Below, piece after piece: positions 6,771 through 64,000 of a DNA stretch of 64,000 bases. A model generated the notes under the pieces. The model was given only the letters and a program-made list of their open reading frames with translations. It did not search any database and was not told the origin of the DNA. How positions within the stretch are numbered: the stretch's first letter is position 1; every line of letters begins with the position of its first letter. A program made the translations under genes and the position numbers. The stretch spans positions 1 through 64,000 of the forward strand of contig JARLHL010000006.1 in the NCBI GenBank assembly GCA_031292275.1. Reading direction: 5' to 3'. Origin of the DNA: Desulfocapsaceae bacterium (GTDB taxonomy: Bacteria > Desulfobacterota > Desulfobulbia > Desulfobulbales > Desulfocapsaceae).

Positions 6771-7433
6771 ATGATCTACAGAGTGAAACGGTTCGTAAAT
6801 ACGGACCAGAACGCCCCTGTCTGGGATCTCCCTCCCTGGCAGGATGTCCCGGCGGCCCGGCTCTGCCACGCCATGGGGACCAGACCTGCCCATTTCCCCA
6901 GTACCGACGTGAAGATGGCCTATGACCGGAAGGCGGTTTCTCTGCTGTTTAGGGTGGAGGACAGGTACGTCCGGGCCGTGGCCACCAGCCATCAGCAGAG
7001 CGTCTGCCGAGACAGCTGCGTCGAATTCTTTTTCTCCCCCGGGCCAGACAGCCAGTCGGGGTATTTCAACCTGGAAATAAACTGCGGCGGGACCCTTCTC
7101 TTTCATTTTCACCCTCATTCCCGCAGAGACGAGCATATCGAACTCCCGACTGCTTTGTGCAATCGGATACAATGCCATCCCTCCCTGCCGCGGATCGTCG
7201 AGCCGGAGATCACCGAACCCGTCACCTGGACCATAGGCTGCCGCATCCCCCTGGCTCCTCTGGCGGAATGGCTGCAGACCATGCCTGCGCCCGGCGAAAC
7301 CTGGCGAGGGAATTTCTACAAATGCGCCGACGCCACCTCGCACCCGCACTGGCTGAGTTGGGCACCGGTGGAGGCACCGAGACCTGATTTTCATCTCCCC
7401 CGGTTTTTCGGCACCCTCCTCTTTATGCCTTGA
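6771..7433 (+). CDS. Carbohydrate-binding family 9-like protein
   Basis: A 220-residue protein without a signal peptide that looks like the CBM9-like domain found as a stand-alone protein: VKMAYDRKAVSLLFRVEDRYVRA, then CVEFFFSPGPDSQSGYFNLEINCGG, then WRGNFYKCADATSHPHWLSWAPV near the C-terminus. Members of this group bind sugars or act as heme-associated DOMON-like sandwiches, but this subfamily has no assigned role. No enzyme or transporter gene lies nearby to suggest a substrate. The ATG follows a weak ribosome binding site (caagac). Confidence 0.7.
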   Translation: MIYRVKRFVNTDQNAPVWDLPPWQDVPAARLCHAMGTRPAHFPSTDVKMAYDRKAVSLLFRVEDRYVRAVATSHQQSVCRDSCVEFFFSPGPDSQSGYFNLEINCGGTLLFHFHPHSRRDEHIELPTALCNRIQCHPSLPRIVEPEITEPVTWTIGCRIPLAPLAEWLQTMPAPGETWRGNFYKCADATSHPHWLSWAPVEAPRPDFHLPRFFGTLLFMP

Positions 7434-7496
7434 TGAGAATCCCTCTCATCTTTCGATTTGCCGAAACGGACAATCAATGGTATTGTCTCTTTTACC

Positions 7497-7554
7497 AGCA
7501 TGACCGGATCAGACCGGCTGACCACAACAAATCACGAAAGTGCATCATTTCGGC
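7497..7554 (+). repeat. 58-bp intergenic repeat, copy C
   Basis: One of three ungapped 58-bp copies (others at 44134-44191 minus and 63671-63728 plus), about three-quarters identical by eye and all outside genes. All share a GCATG start, the core CCACAACA and a TC-rich end closing in GC. A hairpin near the 5' end (CCGG-atcaga-CCGG here) is kept in each copy with compensating bases. This copy lies about 120 nt upstream of the membrane protein gene that begins near 7674. Confidence 0.65.
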
Positions 7555-7673
7555 GAGGCGAGGCCGCCTCCTCTTCAAAGCTTGAATATTATCAACTAAA
7601 TTCCAATATCGCCAACATCATCACGAGAACATCCACATCCCTTCTCCAATTCCTAAAAGGCCATTACACGCCA

Positions 7674-8588
7674 ATGTATTTTCTGTACGAAAAAATTACT
7701 TATATATTTGATCCCCTGCATTTCCTCTGGGAGCATGAGAGGATGCATCGCAAAATCTCCATCGGCCTGGTCCTTTTTTTTCTCGCTGGCCTAGTGGCCA
7801 TTGAGCTGAAACGACAGGCTTACATCCCCGCCGCTCTCGGAGGACTGATCCCCAACAATCATTTTTATGCAGTCCAGGCGGCCTTTACCGTGGTGCTGAT
7901 CCTGGAGGTCATCAGTCTTGTCTTTACCCTGCCCTGTTCCTTTTCCCGGTCCGTCGGCAAGCAATTCGAGATCCTTTCCCTGATCCTGATGCGAAATGCT
8001 TTCAAGTCGCTGGCCCAGTTTCCGGAGCCTGTAACCTTCACCGGCAATGAGCAGGCAATCCTCCACATTGTCTCCGACGGCTTCGGGGCACTGCTGATCT
8101 TTGCCCTGCTCGGCTATTATTATATGATCCAGGGACGGACCTCAGATGAGGCGATGAAGCAGACAGATCTCTTCAGCTTTGTCTCAGCCAAAAAGGGAAT
8201 CGCGCTGGTCCTTCTGGCGATCTTCATCTATCTCGGCCTGCACAGCGCCTGGATGTTGGCAATGCGTAAGGAACACACGGATTTTCTCTATGATTTCTAC
8301 ACGATCCTGATCCTTACAGACATCCTGGTCGTGCTAATCTCCGAGTGTTTTCACCCGTCCTTTTACACGGTTTTCAGAAATTCAGGCTTTGCCCTCTCCA
8401 CCATGCTGATCCGGATGGCACTGGCTGCACCGCCCTTCTTCAATGTCCTGCTTGGCGTCGCTGCCGCCCTCTTTGCCATCCTTCTCTCCAAGATCAGCGG
8501 CCGGATTTTCAAGGATCGACACGCGGCACGCAAGGAGGAAGGCCCGCCGGGAAAAGACCATAAAGGCTGTGGAATTTTCAGCAGATAA
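7674..8588 (+). CDS. Multi-pass inner membrane protein, function unknown
   Basis: About 304 residues from the ATG at 7674 (open further upstream, but that part overlaps the intergenic repeat and is not protein-like). Six or so hydrophobic segments are visible, for example ISIGLVLFFLAGLVAIE, AAFTVVLILEVISLVFTL, GALLIFALLGYYYMI, IALVLLAIFIYLGLHSAW and FFNVLLGVAAALFAILL. The tail is basic and cytoplasmic-looking. No catalytic motif was recognised. An alternative start at 7743 would begin at MHRKIS. Confidence 0.6.
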   Translation: MYFLYEKITYIFDPLHFLWEHERMHRKISIGLVLFFLAGLVAIELKRQAYIPAALGGLIPNNHFYAVQAAFTVVLILEVISLVFTLPCSFSRSVGKQFEILSLILMRNAFKSLAQFPEPVTFTGNEQAILHIVSDGFGALLIFALLGYYYMIQGRTSDEAMKQTDLFSFVSAKKGIALVLLAIFIYLGLHSAWMLAMRKEHTDFLYDFYTILILTDILVVLISECFHPSFYTVFRNSGFALSTMLIRMALAAPPFFNVLLGVAAALFAILLSKISGRIFKDRHAARKEEGPPGKDHKGCGIFSR

Positions 8589-35100: not shown

Positions 35101-35136
35101 ACACGGCAACGTTTCGTGTCACCGTGTGAAAAAAAG
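35101..35136 (-). terminator. Tandem terminators after the probable 6S RNA
   Basis: On the minus strand GGGGAGC is followed by TTTTTTT (about 35129-35135). Then a 6-bp hairpin (ACACGG with CCGTGT, 35122-35127 and 35101-35106) runs into a second T-rich tract. Confidence 0.65.
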
Positions 35137-35310
35137 CTCCCCGCCCTGCCGTGTCAACAGGTACGTTAAACCTATGAATATAGGTGGGATCCCCATACAG
35201 TCATCAGGAAATTCGCGTACGATTTTCCATCCAACGGTAGCGAGGGCTCCCTTTTAATGAGAGTTGGCTCAACAACACTGGAGATCACCAACAGCGCAGG
35301 GAAATATTGT
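35136..35310 (-). ncRNA. ssrS: Probable 6S RNA
   Basis: A roughly 175-nt minus-strand segment between zapA and rny with 6S-like architecture. A closing stem CCCTGC with GCAGGG (35296-35301 with 35144-35149) is extended after a 2x2 internal loop by TGT/ACA. A large central open region follows, with TTGAGCCAAC facing GTTGGATGG, and then a terminal hairpin-rich arm. It ends in a T-run. 6S RNA mimics an open promoter and sequesters sigma-70 RNA polymerase. In many proteobacteria it lies beside zapA. Ends are approximate. Confidence 0.6.
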
Positions 35311-44062: not shown

Positions 44063-44133
44063 CAGGAATTTCTCGCAGTATGGACTTTTTTCATGTTTAT
44101 ATGAAGGTCTCGTTTGAGTGGCAGCCAAGGCAG

Positions 44134-44191
44134 GCTGAAATGACAATTTTCCATAATGTGTTGTGGCCGACTGGTCCGGTCCAGCCATGCC
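44134..44191 (-). repeat. 58-bp intergenic repeat, copy B
   Basis: Minus-strand copy of the 58-bp repeat found also at 7497-7554 and 63671-63728, aligned without gaps. The hairpin here is CTGG-accgga-CCAG, where the second pair is T-A; it is C-G in copy C and T-G in copy A. It points toward phoB, about 70 nt upstream of its start. Confidence 0.65.
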
Positions 44192-44397
44192 GGTATAAGC
44201 GTAATCTGAAATACGTTATTTTGAGGGCCCCGTTCAGGGGAGTATATTTTCAAGGTACTCCGCCCGCCTCCAGGGGAGCGCAGCGAAGTCCATGGCACCC
44301 GAGGAGACACCTTCACTGGAGCAAACCGTCGATTGTGAGATAAAATACCGGCTTAAACGTGCAGTATTTTCTTTCCGCGCGCAAGCCATTTTCCACG

Positions 44398-44438: not shown

Positions 44439-44533
44439 TCGCCCCGTATGATAAACAGTATACTATCGAAATATTTTTCCCGGTCGAGCTGCCCCACGGA
44501 AAAATCCAATCACTATCAAGGACATGAGCGAGA

Positions 44534-45190
44534 ATGCAACCCCATTTCACCTTCCATCTTGAACTCCAGAAACTGAATAAAAAGCTCCTCCTCCTGAGCT
44601 CCATGGTCGAGGATCGGGTACGTAAGGCCGTCAAGGTCATCGAAACCCATGATGAGGAACTGATTCAGTCGATCATCATGTCCGATTATGAAATCGATGA
44701 GATGGAAATTGAGATTGAAGAAGATTGCTTGAAGATCCTGGCCCTGCATCAGCCCGTGGCCAGCGACCTGCGATTTTTGATCGCGGTAATCAAAATAAAT
44801 ACCGAGATTGAGAGAATAGCCGATATGGCTGTCAGCATCGCCATCCGGGTACAGACCATCGGCAACAGCAATATCATCAACACCAGCTTCGACTTCAGCA
44901 CCATGTCCGAAAAGGTTATCCAGATGCTGAAGATGAGTCTCGATGCGCTGGTCAACCGCGATGCCCAGAAGGCCCGGGAGATCTTTCATATCGACGACGA
45001 GGTCGATACCCTCCGCAACCAGGCCTATGATGCGGTCAAGGAGATGATCCGGAAAAATCCCGATCATCCCGGCCGGCAGATCAACACCTACCTGCTCGCC
45101 AGGCATCTGGAACGTATCGCCGATCGGGCCACCAACATCGCCGAAGAGGTCATCTACCTGGTAGACGGGGCCATCGTCCGCTGTCCCTGA
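44534..45190 (+). CDS. phoU: Phosphate signalling regulator PhoU
   Basis: A 218-residue cytoplasmic protein made of two three-helix PhoU repeats. Seen: LELQKLNKKLLLLSSMVEDRVRKAV, ELIQSIIMSDYEIDEMEIEIEE (metal-binding acidic patch), ASDLRFLIAVIKINTEIERIADMAV and the second-repeat equivalent NTYLLARHLERIADRATNIAEEV. PhoU represses PhoR-PhoB signalling through the Pst transporter. pstSCAB are absent here, so PhoU is separate from the transporter genes. It sits behind a four-repeat Pho box. Confidence 0.92.
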   Translation: MQPHFTFHLELQKLNKKLLLLSSMVEDRVRKAVKVIETHDEELIQSIIMSDYEIDEMEIEIEEDCLKILALHQPVASDLRFLIAVIKINTEIERIADMAVSIAIRVQTIGNSNIINTSFDFSTMSEKVIQMLKMSLDALVNRDAQKAREIFHIDDEVDTLRNQAYDAVKEMIRKNPDHPGRQINTYLLARHLERIADRATNIAEEVIYLVDGAIVRCP

Positions 45191-45439
45191 TCCTCCGGCC
45201 GCCCTCATGGGCCCAGCGTCCGCGCCGGCCGGTTCTCTCAGCAGCCATGCAACAGGAAATACCGGCTGCCGGCATCCCTTCCAACAGCATATCCCTTCGA
45301 AGGAAAACAGATATCCATTGACATGAGCGTCTGAACCATATATCCATTTGTCGCTCCTTTCGATCGGCGGAGGAAAAGGCCGCCGCTCTTCCCGCCCGCT
45401 GTCAGACCGGGGGAAAGGTGCCATCAAGAGGCTAATGAC

Positions 45440-46276
45440 GTGATTGAAGTTACAGACCTGAGCAAGCAATTCGGAGACCGGGCCGCCCTGGCCGGGGTCT
45501 CTTTTACGGTGGGACCCGGCACGATCTTCGGCTACCTGGGACCAAACGGCGCGGGCAAGACCACCACCATCCGGATTCTGACCGGCCTGACCCGCCGGGA
45601 CGGAGGCTTGGTACGGTTGAACGGCTTTGATATCGAGCAAGAGCCTCTCCGATGCAAGGCCCAGTTCGGACTGGTGCCGCAGCATACCAACCTGGACGCC
45701 GAGCTGACGGTGGAGGAAAATCTGTTGATCCACGGCCTTCTCCACCATATGGCCAGACCCGATATCGCCCGGCGGACCGAGGAACTCTTGGAGTACATCG
45801 AAATGAACGACCGGCGCAAGGTCCTGGTCAAAACCCTGTCCGGCGGTATGAAGCGCAGGCTGCTCATCGGCCGGGCCCTGATGCATACCCCGGGCATCCT
45901 CTTTTTGGATGAACCCACAGTGGGCCTCGACCCGGCCATACGCAGGCGCATATGGGGGCTGGTCAGAAAGATCCAGAGCGACGGCACCACCATCTTTCTG
46001 ACAACCCATTATATCGAAGAGGCCGAATTTCTGGCTGACCGGGTGGCCTTTCTGGATGCAGGCAGGATCGTGGCCGAAGACAGCCCGGCAGCCTTGATGG
46101 CAGGGATCGGCGAATGGGCAGTGGATTATCTCGGCGACAACCGGCTGCAGACCGTCTATTTCGGCTCCCGGGACGAGGCAAGGGAATATCTGGTCAACCG
46201 GATGGACGGCCTCACGGTCCGACGGGTGAACCTGGAAGACGCCTTCATTTCCATGACCGGGAGGAAGATCCTATGA
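45440..46276 (+). CDS. ABC-2 exporter ATP-binding protein (DrrA/NodI type)
   Basis: A 278-residue cytoplasmic ATPase from a GTG start (MIEVTDLSKQFGDRAALAG). Walker A GYLGPNGAGKTTTIRIL, Q-loop, signature LSGGMKRRLLIGRAL, Walker B ILFLDEPTVGLDPAIR and the switch His in FLTTHYIEEAE. The C-terminal extra domain is the DrrA type. It overlaps the permease start by 4 nt. Substrate unknown: antibiotic, lipid or polysaccharide precursors are all possible for this class. Confidence 0.9.
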   Translation: MIEVTDLSKQFGDRAALAGVSFTVGPGTIFGYLGPNGAGKTTTIRILTGLTRRDGGLVRLNGFDIEQEPLRCKAQFGLVPQHTNLDAELTVEENLLIHGLLHHMARPDIARRTEELLEYIEMNDRRKVLVKTLSGGMKRRLLIGRALMHTPGILFLDEPTVGLDPAIRRRIWGLVRKIQSDGTTIFLTTHYIEEAEFLADRVAFLDAGRIVAEDSPAALMAGIGEWAVDYLGDNRLQTVYFGSRDEAREYLVNRMDGLTVRRVNLEDAFISMTGRKIL

Positions 46277-62815: not shown

Positions 62816-63649
62816 TCAGTGCAACAGGCGGTAGACAACCGCAACGACCGCTGTCCAGGCCAGGCAACCGACCGTTGCCACAGCGCAGATCAGGGCCAGG
62901 CCGCGGTGCAGATGCGATTCCTTTCTGACATCGGAGTACCCCAGCAGCATCCCCAGCACTATCCCGCTGAGAATCCCGCCTCCATGGCCCCAGTTGTTGA
63001 TGCCCGGGACTAAAAACCCGAACAGGAACAGGCCGACGACCCAGCCGCGGACCTCGCGGAAGACGGTGGAACCGTAGGTCCCGCCCCTGCTCTTGCCATA
63101 GTAGAGCAGGGAACCTATGAGGGCGCAGATGGCGGCAGAGGCGCCTACTGTCAAAGGTATGCCGACCAGATAGGAGAGGATGAAGCCGCCGATGCCGCCC
63201 AGGGTGTAGATAATAAACATCCGTGCGGCGCCATACTCCTGGATCACCAGCGGGGCGACCTGACGAAGGGCCATCATGTTGAAGACGATATGCAGTATCC
63301 CTGCGTGCAGATAGTTTGCAGTCAGAAACGACCAGAAATTCCCAAACCGGTCCACGGGCACTGTCCCCGTCGCCCCCAACAGCACCAGACTGTTGTCGCT
63401 GGGAGAAAGAAGGCTCAGCGGACTGGCGGCAATGTCCATATGCCGCGTCACCAGCAGCGAAAAGATATAGAACAATACCGTAACGATAATGATGTCCTGT
63501 ACCAGCCAGTCATCACCTAGAAGCCCCCTTGTCTGCCCTATGATCTTCCACCAGGGATTGGAGCGGGAGGCCCCGCACCATGAGCAGACCTTCTCGCTGC
63601 TGCCGATAAGCCGGTTGCAGCGGGGGCACATTATGGCCTTGTTCGCCAT
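62816..63649 (-). CDS. Rhomboid-family intramembrane serine protease with zinc ribbon
   Basis: A 277-residue membrane protein. N-terminal zinc ribbon (CPRCNRLIG and CSWCGAS), then six transmembrane helices with the rhomboid core: NYLHAGILHIVFNMMALRQV, the catalytic serine in VGASAAICALIG, and the catalytic His in NNWGHGGGILSGIVLG. It cleaves membrane-protein helices; the substrate is unknown. Start at 63649 (MANKAIMCPRC) fixed by the zinc ribbon. It stands alone, convergent with the moeA/PBP gene. Confidence 0.9.
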   Translation of the reverse strand: MANKAIMCPRCNRLIGSSEKVCSWCGASRSNPWWKIIGQTRGLLGDDWLVQDIIIVTVLFYIFSLLVTRHMDIAASPLSLLSPSDNSLVLLGATGTVPVDRFGNFWSFLTANYLHAGILHIVFNMMALRQVAPLVIQEYGAARMFIIYTLGGIGGFILSYLVGIPLTVGASAAICALIGSLLYYGKSRGGTYGSTVFREVRGWVVGLFLFGFLVPGINNWGHGGGILSGIVLGMLLGYSDVRKESHLHRGLALICAVATVGCLAWTAVVAVVYRLLH

Positions 63650-64000
63650 GTATACTCCTTCATAAAAACCAGCATGGCTGGACCGTACCGGCCAGCCACA
63701 ACAAAGCATGAAAGCTCGTCACTCCGGCATAGAGAGCCCTTGCTTCAGGGAGAACTTTCATGGAATAGCATCGATTATGCGCAGGCCGCAGGCCTGAACC
63801 TTTTCCAGCGTCCTTTCCCCGCCACCCCAAAGACTGCTCATCCTACAGGAATTCCCTGCCGGGATCAAAGATATTAATGCTCTGATTCCAGTTTGTTATC
63901 CGCTAAATGTCCGAAGCCAACCGAGAGAAAAGAAAAAACAGAGGAATGTTGCAATGTTAGAGCCATAAACCAGGACCTCAATACCCTACGGAGAAGAAAT
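63650..64000. other. Window-end intergenic region
   Basis: No gene is seen. It holds a plus-strand copy of the 58-bp repeat (63671-63728) and an AT-rich end. A gene may begin past the window edge. Confidence 0.5.
63671..63728 (+). repeat. 58-bp intergenic repeat, copy A
   Basis: Third copy of the 58-bp repeat, ungapped against the copies at 7497 and 44134. The hairpin is CTGG-accgta-CCGG. It lies just upstream of the rhomboid gene on the opposite strand. Confidence 0.65.

Follow-up and report, generated by a model that had tools for sequence, protein, structure and literature searches.

Three kinds of described system are close to the repeat reported here. Palindrome-associated transposable elements (PATEs) of Haloquadratum carry palindromes that resemble those of the resident IS605-type transposons (PMC3119063). 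REP sequences, which are associated with TnpA-REP/RAYT proteins, include the GTAG REPs, reported to supply TAG stop codons (PMC3733652). The IS200/IS605 insertion sequences, such as IS608 and ISDra2, form the third (PMC6006769).

The repeat analyzed here is, judged from sequence comparison, best described as a PATE-like, non-autonomous family of mobile elements. It is probably a mini-transposon of about 98 nt that moves as a single strand, in the manner of IS200/IS605, PATE or REP elements. The kind is already known, and the family itself is apparently undescribed: a literature search, with most subscription papers and preprints outside its coverage, found no paper containing the terminal sequence CCAGCATGGCTGG and none on a palindromic transposable repeat of Desulfobulbaceae. 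The family would represent an abundant mobile element of Desulfobulbaceae-related genomes and, in the same phylum, of at least one genome from a different order.

The repeat unit in the window and in the host genome

The window, meaning the whole stretch of 64,000 nt that was analyzed, is contig C104 of the host genome, a 4.14-Mb draft in 114 contigs. A first-pass annotation had reported a 58-bp repeat here in three copies, at 7497-7554 (+), 44134-44191 (-) and 63671-63728 (+). These coordinates are correct. The three copies do align over the 58 bp without gaps, at about the identity estimated by eye, three-quarters (78% mean column identity across 95 columns), and they do share CCACAACA with ACC before each. 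The repeat itself is real, and only its extent has to be revised: on extending the three copies rightwards, the full unit is seen to be about 98 nt, of which the 58 bp are only the left 60% or so. The features are as follows.

7495-7592, + strand: copy 1, full element (model positions 5-102; covariance model match 7491-7593, 67.2 bits)
44096-44193, - strand: copy 2, full element (covariance model match 44197-44095, 82.7 bits)
63669-63766, + strand: copy 3, full element (covariance model match 63665-63767, 84.6 bits)
63675-63698, + strand: hairpin 1 of copy 3, TGGCTGG/CCAGCCA (from folding and pair counts)
63707-63762, + strand: hairpin 2 of copy 3, with the base ATGAAAG/CTTTCAT (from folding and pair counts)

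The covariance model (R2) spans 103 positions, including four of the left flank and one of the right flank; the three window copies, recovered at full length with 67-85 bits, are among its training sequences. With a slash for each boundary, the element reads ...TAA/CCAGCATGGCTGGACC...CAGCCACAACAAA.CATGAAAG...CTTTCATATAAA/, its left end CCAGCATGGCTGGACC being almost invariant and its right end CTTTCATATAAA fixed. It is free of genes and, at 98 nt, too short to code for a transposase. Terminal inverted repeats are absent, the ends CCAGCATGGCTGG... and ...CTTTCATATAAA not being inverted copies of each other.

Copy 1 is flanked by a CBM9 gene (end at 7433, +) and an open reading frame (start at 7743, +), and copy 2 by a phoB-like response-regulator gene (start at about 44062, -) and an open reading frame at 44516-46009 (-); copy 3 stands on the upstream side of a rhomboid-domain gene (62816-63649, -), which diverges from it. 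Their left-flank tetranucleotides are TTTA (7491-7494), TATA (44197-44194 on the - strand) and AAAA (63665-63668), respectively. The three are old, ordinary members of the family.

A blastn query with a 66-nt consensus of the three copies matched 41 places in the host genome (40 candidates scored), and the covariance model found at least 150 full-length copies. The earlier expectation that three copies in one window imply many in the genome, which was to be checked by just such a scan, is thereby borne out. The left-end 17-mer, with up to three mismatches, gave 948 matches versus 373 for a reversed control. Host copies are found in intergenic space of every kind, on the upstream and the downstream side of genes and in either orientation, and many lie directly behind a stop codon; the upstream or divergent position given for the three window copies is right for these and does not extend to the family. 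Only 1 of the 121 copies analyzed overlaps a gene as called by a simple codon-usage gene caller, with a non-coding share of only about 28% in the same sequence. Head-to-tail dimers are frequent. To the left of host copies stand TAAA (27), CTAA (22), CTGA (7) and other tetranucleotides, and the most conserved flank positions are -1 (A, 0.88) and -2 (A, 0.78).

Palindromes are present near both termini, hairpin 1 within nt 1-30 or so and hairpin 2 ending about 5 nt before the right end, and the two are unlike each other. Nearly invariant in sequence across the family, hairpin 1 pairs GGCTGG with CCAGCC or, in an alternative form flush with the left end, reads CCAGC-ATG-GCTGG. The first-pass annotation had described it as a 4-bp stem with a covarying C-G, T-A or T-G pair; the change is real, and the stem is longer, with 6 to 7 pairs (TGGCTGG/CCAGCCA). 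Covariation at this pair is not significant among 104 copies of the host's own (Fisher p = 0.12), and is found instead in the larger hairpin 2, which had gone unnoticed. Hairpin 2 has a conserved base and, across the family, compensatory changes in its upper stem; one of its pairs is GC in 63 and AU in 25 of 99 distinct sequences from other genomes, and all slid controls are far lower, in large alignments that were fitted to the structure and whose pair counts therefore lean towards hairpin 2. In a 39-copy alignment consensus folding gave hairpin 1 only, with pair counts that barely exceed those of shuffles; hairpin 2 came from folds of single sequences and from the larger alignments. The consensus folds well below shuffled sequences (z = -6.2), the individual window copies more weakly (-2.7, -1.4 and -0.6).

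This folding, the covariation of hairpin 2 and the position behind stop codons would all suit an RNA element with a function in 3' or 5' untranslated regions (a terminator, processing or regulatory element) selected at each locus. We consider this highly improbable, since copies 2 and 3 have no counterpart at the orthologous loci of other members of the genus: the congener G001 has no such element before phoB, and both G001 and a second congener, G002, lack it at the rhomboid-gene locus. Copies also stand in both orientations, upstream as well as downstream of genes, near-identical recent copies occur at unrelated places, the distribution is patchy, and the element has no Rfam match. A locus-specific regulatory site, RNA or DNA, which had been one of the earlier suggestions, is accordingly disfavored. 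A known RNA family was rejected as well, the only Rfam match in the window at gathering score being 6S RNA. That 6S RNA (RF00013) lies at 35134-35305 (-), with 76 bits and an E value of 2.8e-13.

Insertion sites, targets and distribution

The clearest record of movement comes from NCgw1637 (JACRCD01), a groundwater relative, in which empty and occupied versions of one site can be compared. The empty version reads GGATGGCTAA/GTAAC and the occupied version GGATGGCTAA/CCAGC...TATAAA/GTAAC. Three sites are empty (GGATGGCTAAGTAACAAAATTCG, more fully GGATGGCTAAGTAACAAAATTCGATATACAAGG, at L133, L172 and L177) and four are occupied (GGATGGCTAA/CCAGCATGGCTGG...CTTTCATATAAA/GTAACAAAATTCG at L131 and L180, and similarly at L123 and L177). 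The comparison shows no target duplication, and the junctions are ambiguous by at most 2 nt (AA). The insert thus lies immediately after CTAA. The four occupied sites may represent one insertion that was copied along with the repeat around it. The landing site is itself a second dispersed repeat of this genome (GTAAAAAGTCGGCGACAAAGCCCGGATGGCTAAGTAACAAAATTCGATATACAAGGCGTAGTG; L131, L133, L172, L177 and L180).

In a second relative, S015_9 (WFRY01), a search with no TAA requirement found 25 left ends. In two subfamilies the near-identical copies, 11 and 7 in number, all stand behind GTAA and end at CTTTCATATAAA (one at CTTTTATATAAA), and the flanks beyond are unrelated; other subfamilies there have TAAA, CAAA or ATAA on the left. 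A fixed left tetranucleotide, as in IS200/IS605-type elements, is thus seen in the two young S015_9 subfamilies (GTAA) and in NCgw1637 (CTAA), and the target is specific to the genome. Inside host copies no position correlates with the target convincingly enough to count as a guide (best p = 5e-4 over 99 positions).

The median identity to the nearest neighbor is 0.99 in S015_9 and 0.965 in NCgw1637 versus 0.78 in the host, and the family is therefore young in some relatives, where it has multiplied recently, and old in the host genome. An earlier proposal, a REP-like element or the remnant of a small mobile element, is upheld as to mobility by the empty and occupied sites and the recent near-identical copies in relatives, though not as to a strict REP; "remnant" fits the host genome, with its median identity of 0.78 and no Y1 or Y2 transposase found. 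Because ends and empty site are exact and targets are specific to the genome, mobility is directly testable.

Smaller hairpin sequences lie inside the element at fixed points, for example GTAAGCGGAGCGAAGCGCAGACTCC behind ACCAG and ATGACACCGCTTCGCTGTTAT behind CACAAC (L121, L128, L145, L183, L481 and L491); they recall the small repeats that invade Haloquadratum PATEs.

Stop codons are overrepresented at the left junction. Among host copies preceded by TAA, 10 of 28 abut the stop of a called gene (3.3% expected, p = 1e-8), as do 4 of the 8 preceded by TGA (2.5% expected, p = 2.5e-5); the expectation is the share of such trinucleotides at non-coding insertion points that are gene stops. In ERR2206774_bin.160, where the search required TAA, half of the copies (7 of 14) stand immediately downstream of an open frame longer than 100 codons. 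The simplest reading of this excess is that a target containing TAA allows harmless insertion behind a stop; it is possible, alternatively, that gene ends are targeted as such. Under the simplest reading selection would be the cause of the excess, and the TAA in the usual target would account for the tolerance of a compact genome to such a large number of insertions.

The distribution among sulfur-cycling relatives is patchy. A search of relatives gave matches at E <= 1e-4 in 16 of 58 genomes, with 1 to at least 69 copies per genome, and many genomes of the same family are without the element. Exact left ends, among the matches listed, come from Desulfobulbaceae, Desulfobulbus, Desulfobacterales, Desulfoarculaceae, unplaced Deltaproteobacteria and others. 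In an even sample of the phylum 3 of 395 genomes have an exact left end, and one of these, G254, lies outside the order; its copies keep the plan of the element, and two of them form a head-to-tail pair. In the closed genome G017, seven head-to-tail units are arrayed with an exact 93-bp period (C1:3638664-3639292).

Plasmid and phage records gave no match to the element. Two exact 18-mers in viral contigs were set aside, as the sequence does not continue as the element. A tandem pair close to the host's own subfamily was found on a contig labeled Puia sp. (JARLGZ010000070; L188, 2671-2868), assigned to Bacteroidota, which is possibly a mis-binned contig or a case of transfer.

The mechanism and the enzyme

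The target on the left only, the hairpins inside both ends, the lack of duplication and of inverted repeats, and the target-like right end lead us to infer a single-strand mechanism with an enzyme of the HUH type, in which tandems arise through re-insertion. An enzyme acting in trans would recognize the two hairpins in single-stranded DNA and would make its left cut just after the target and its right cut just after TATAAA; in the manner of IS200/IS605 and REP systems, it would then join the excised element to a new target, on the 3' side. The target would be short: CTAA in one genome, GTAA in another, and mainly TAAA or CTAA in the host. Because this target often ends in TAA, an insertion directly behind a stop codon would leave the gene intact and would survive. 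Use of the element's own right end (TAAA) as a target would give head-to-tail dimers and arrays.

IS200/IS605 and REP systems are served by Y1 HUH proteins. No Y1 gene (PF01797) was found in the host, with positive controls, and none in Desulfobulbus elongatus or in MAG 356-308. Y1 genes were present in all 11 repeat-bearing relatives of one search and in 11 of the 13 genomes of another, and several of the encoded proteins are RAYT-like in length. When the Y1 loci of repeat-bearing relatives were scanned with the covariance model, each with flanks of about 1.5 kb as far as the contig reached, copies lay beside the Y1 gene at 1 of 60. At this sole locus (G039:C71, L341, 197-2269) a RAYT-like gene (431-1414) stands between two copies. 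The idea of copies flanking RAYT genes was also followed at G051 (NCgw1637) and G034 and dropped: at 2-3 kb from the Y1 genes there is a single distant copy with ordinary genes around.

These Y1 genes raise the possibility of a strict REP/RAYT system, that is, of REP sequences spread by a domesticated Y1 transposase of these genomes. The high copy number, the intergenic position, the hairpin directly after a tag tetranucleotide, the tag that supplies stop codons, as for GTAG REPs (PMC3733652), the presence of Y1 genes, several RAYT-like in length, in most repeat-bearing relatives examined, and the G039 gene between two copies would all suit it. We nevertheless regard it as very unlikely, as the tag is neither GTAG nor CGTC, the unit is 98 nt rather than 20-40 nt with two unlike hairpins, no Y1 gene is present in the host, D. 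elongatus or MAG 356-308, and 59 of the 60 Y1 loci have no adjacent copy.

No full-length element with a transposase occurs among the 25 left ends of S015_9, and no transposon with the same ends or palindromes among these or the 60 Y1 loci, in drafts that may lack one; a multicopy transposase may have been lost in the contig gaps of the host draft. Y2 genes (PF04986) are present in 6 of the 10 genomes searched and absent from the host, G026 (ERR2206774_bin.160), G060 and D. elongatus, in a search that gave no match in any control genome and is thus less well anchored.

A lagging-strand mechanism predicts a difference in orientation between the replichores. In closed genome G017, with the origin at about 3.77 Mb and the terminus at about 1.61 Mb by GC skew, the two replichores hold 8+/11- and 7+/15- copies, so that there is no such bias (41 independent, old copies of one genome). 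This result, together with the lack of a Y1 or Y2 gene in the host and the copies at only 1 of 60 Y1 loci, speaks against the single-strand reading.

It also leaves room for mobility by an enzyme of another class, either a Y2 or Helitron-like rolling-circle HUH enzyme or a serine, tyrosine or IS110-type recombinase acting at an AA core. AA is common to target and right end, forms the 2-nt ambiguity of the junctions and occupies the most conserved host flank positions (-1 and -2; A, 0.88 and 0.78); exact tandem arrays would suit rolling-circle products, neither Y1 (in the host) nor strand bias (in G017) is seen, and Y2 occurs in 6 of 10 genomes. This alternative appears unlikely to us, for the genome-specific target of 4 nt (GTAA or CTAA) exceeds a dinucleotide core, Y2 is absent from four of the genomes, and no recombinase gene was found between such ends in a search of families other than IS110 and the serine recombinases. 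A further proposal has the element moved by an enzyme outside both the Y1 and the Y2 HUH transposases, or else by an enzyme of the host that works on single-stranded DNA in folded form, the target doubling as a stop codon. This is doubtful; if true, the family would form a new class of mobile elements in Desulfobacterota that spare genes.

Comparison with described elements

MITEs, for example Correia elements, are likewise short, dispersed, non-autonomous and foldable, and were rejected for the absence of terminal inverted repeats and of target-site duplication. The ends of integron attC sites, RYYYAAC and GTTRRRY, pair with each other. The left TCTAACC of the element does resemble R'', but attC was rejected, as the right end TATAAA does not pair with TCTAACC.

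The element, in the reading that we prefer a non-autonomous single-strand mini-transposon, resembles PATEs in having no terminal inverted repeats, palindromes near both ends and no target duplication, and also in being too short for a transposase, in its 5' target oligonucleotide and in the small repeats inserted inside it (PMC3119063). Unlike in PATEs, its two hairpins differ, no transposon with the same ends was found among the loci searched, and the host is a bacterium, PATEs belonging to another domain; no sequence relation is claimed.

Like IS200/IS605 elements such as IS608 and ISDra2, it inserts 3' to a tetranucleotide target, carries a hairpin near either end and makes no duplication (PMC6006769); the terminal bases of its right end (TAAA), too, resemble the target. 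It differs from them in having no transposase gene, a left hairpin almost flush with the end, hairpins unlike each other and, in the one closed genome G017, no replichore bias of orientation.

REPs with TnpA-REP/RAYT proteins are similar in their high copy number (here at least 150), intergenic position (here 1 of 121 copies overlapping a called gene), hairpin beside a tetranucleotide tag and patchy distribution (PMC3733652, PMC8266576, PMC6006769). Unlike REPs, the element has a CTAA, GTAA or TAAA tag rather than GTAG or CGTC, a unit of about 98 nt rather than a palindrome of 20-40 nt, two unlike hairpins, a fixed right end and head-to-tail tandems; a RAYT is missing from the host, and a REPtron arrangement is generally lacking. 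The REP tag often supplies a TAG stop and the tag of this element a TAA stop, which would make it a second case, beside the GTAG REPs, of a mobile tag that supplies stop codons.
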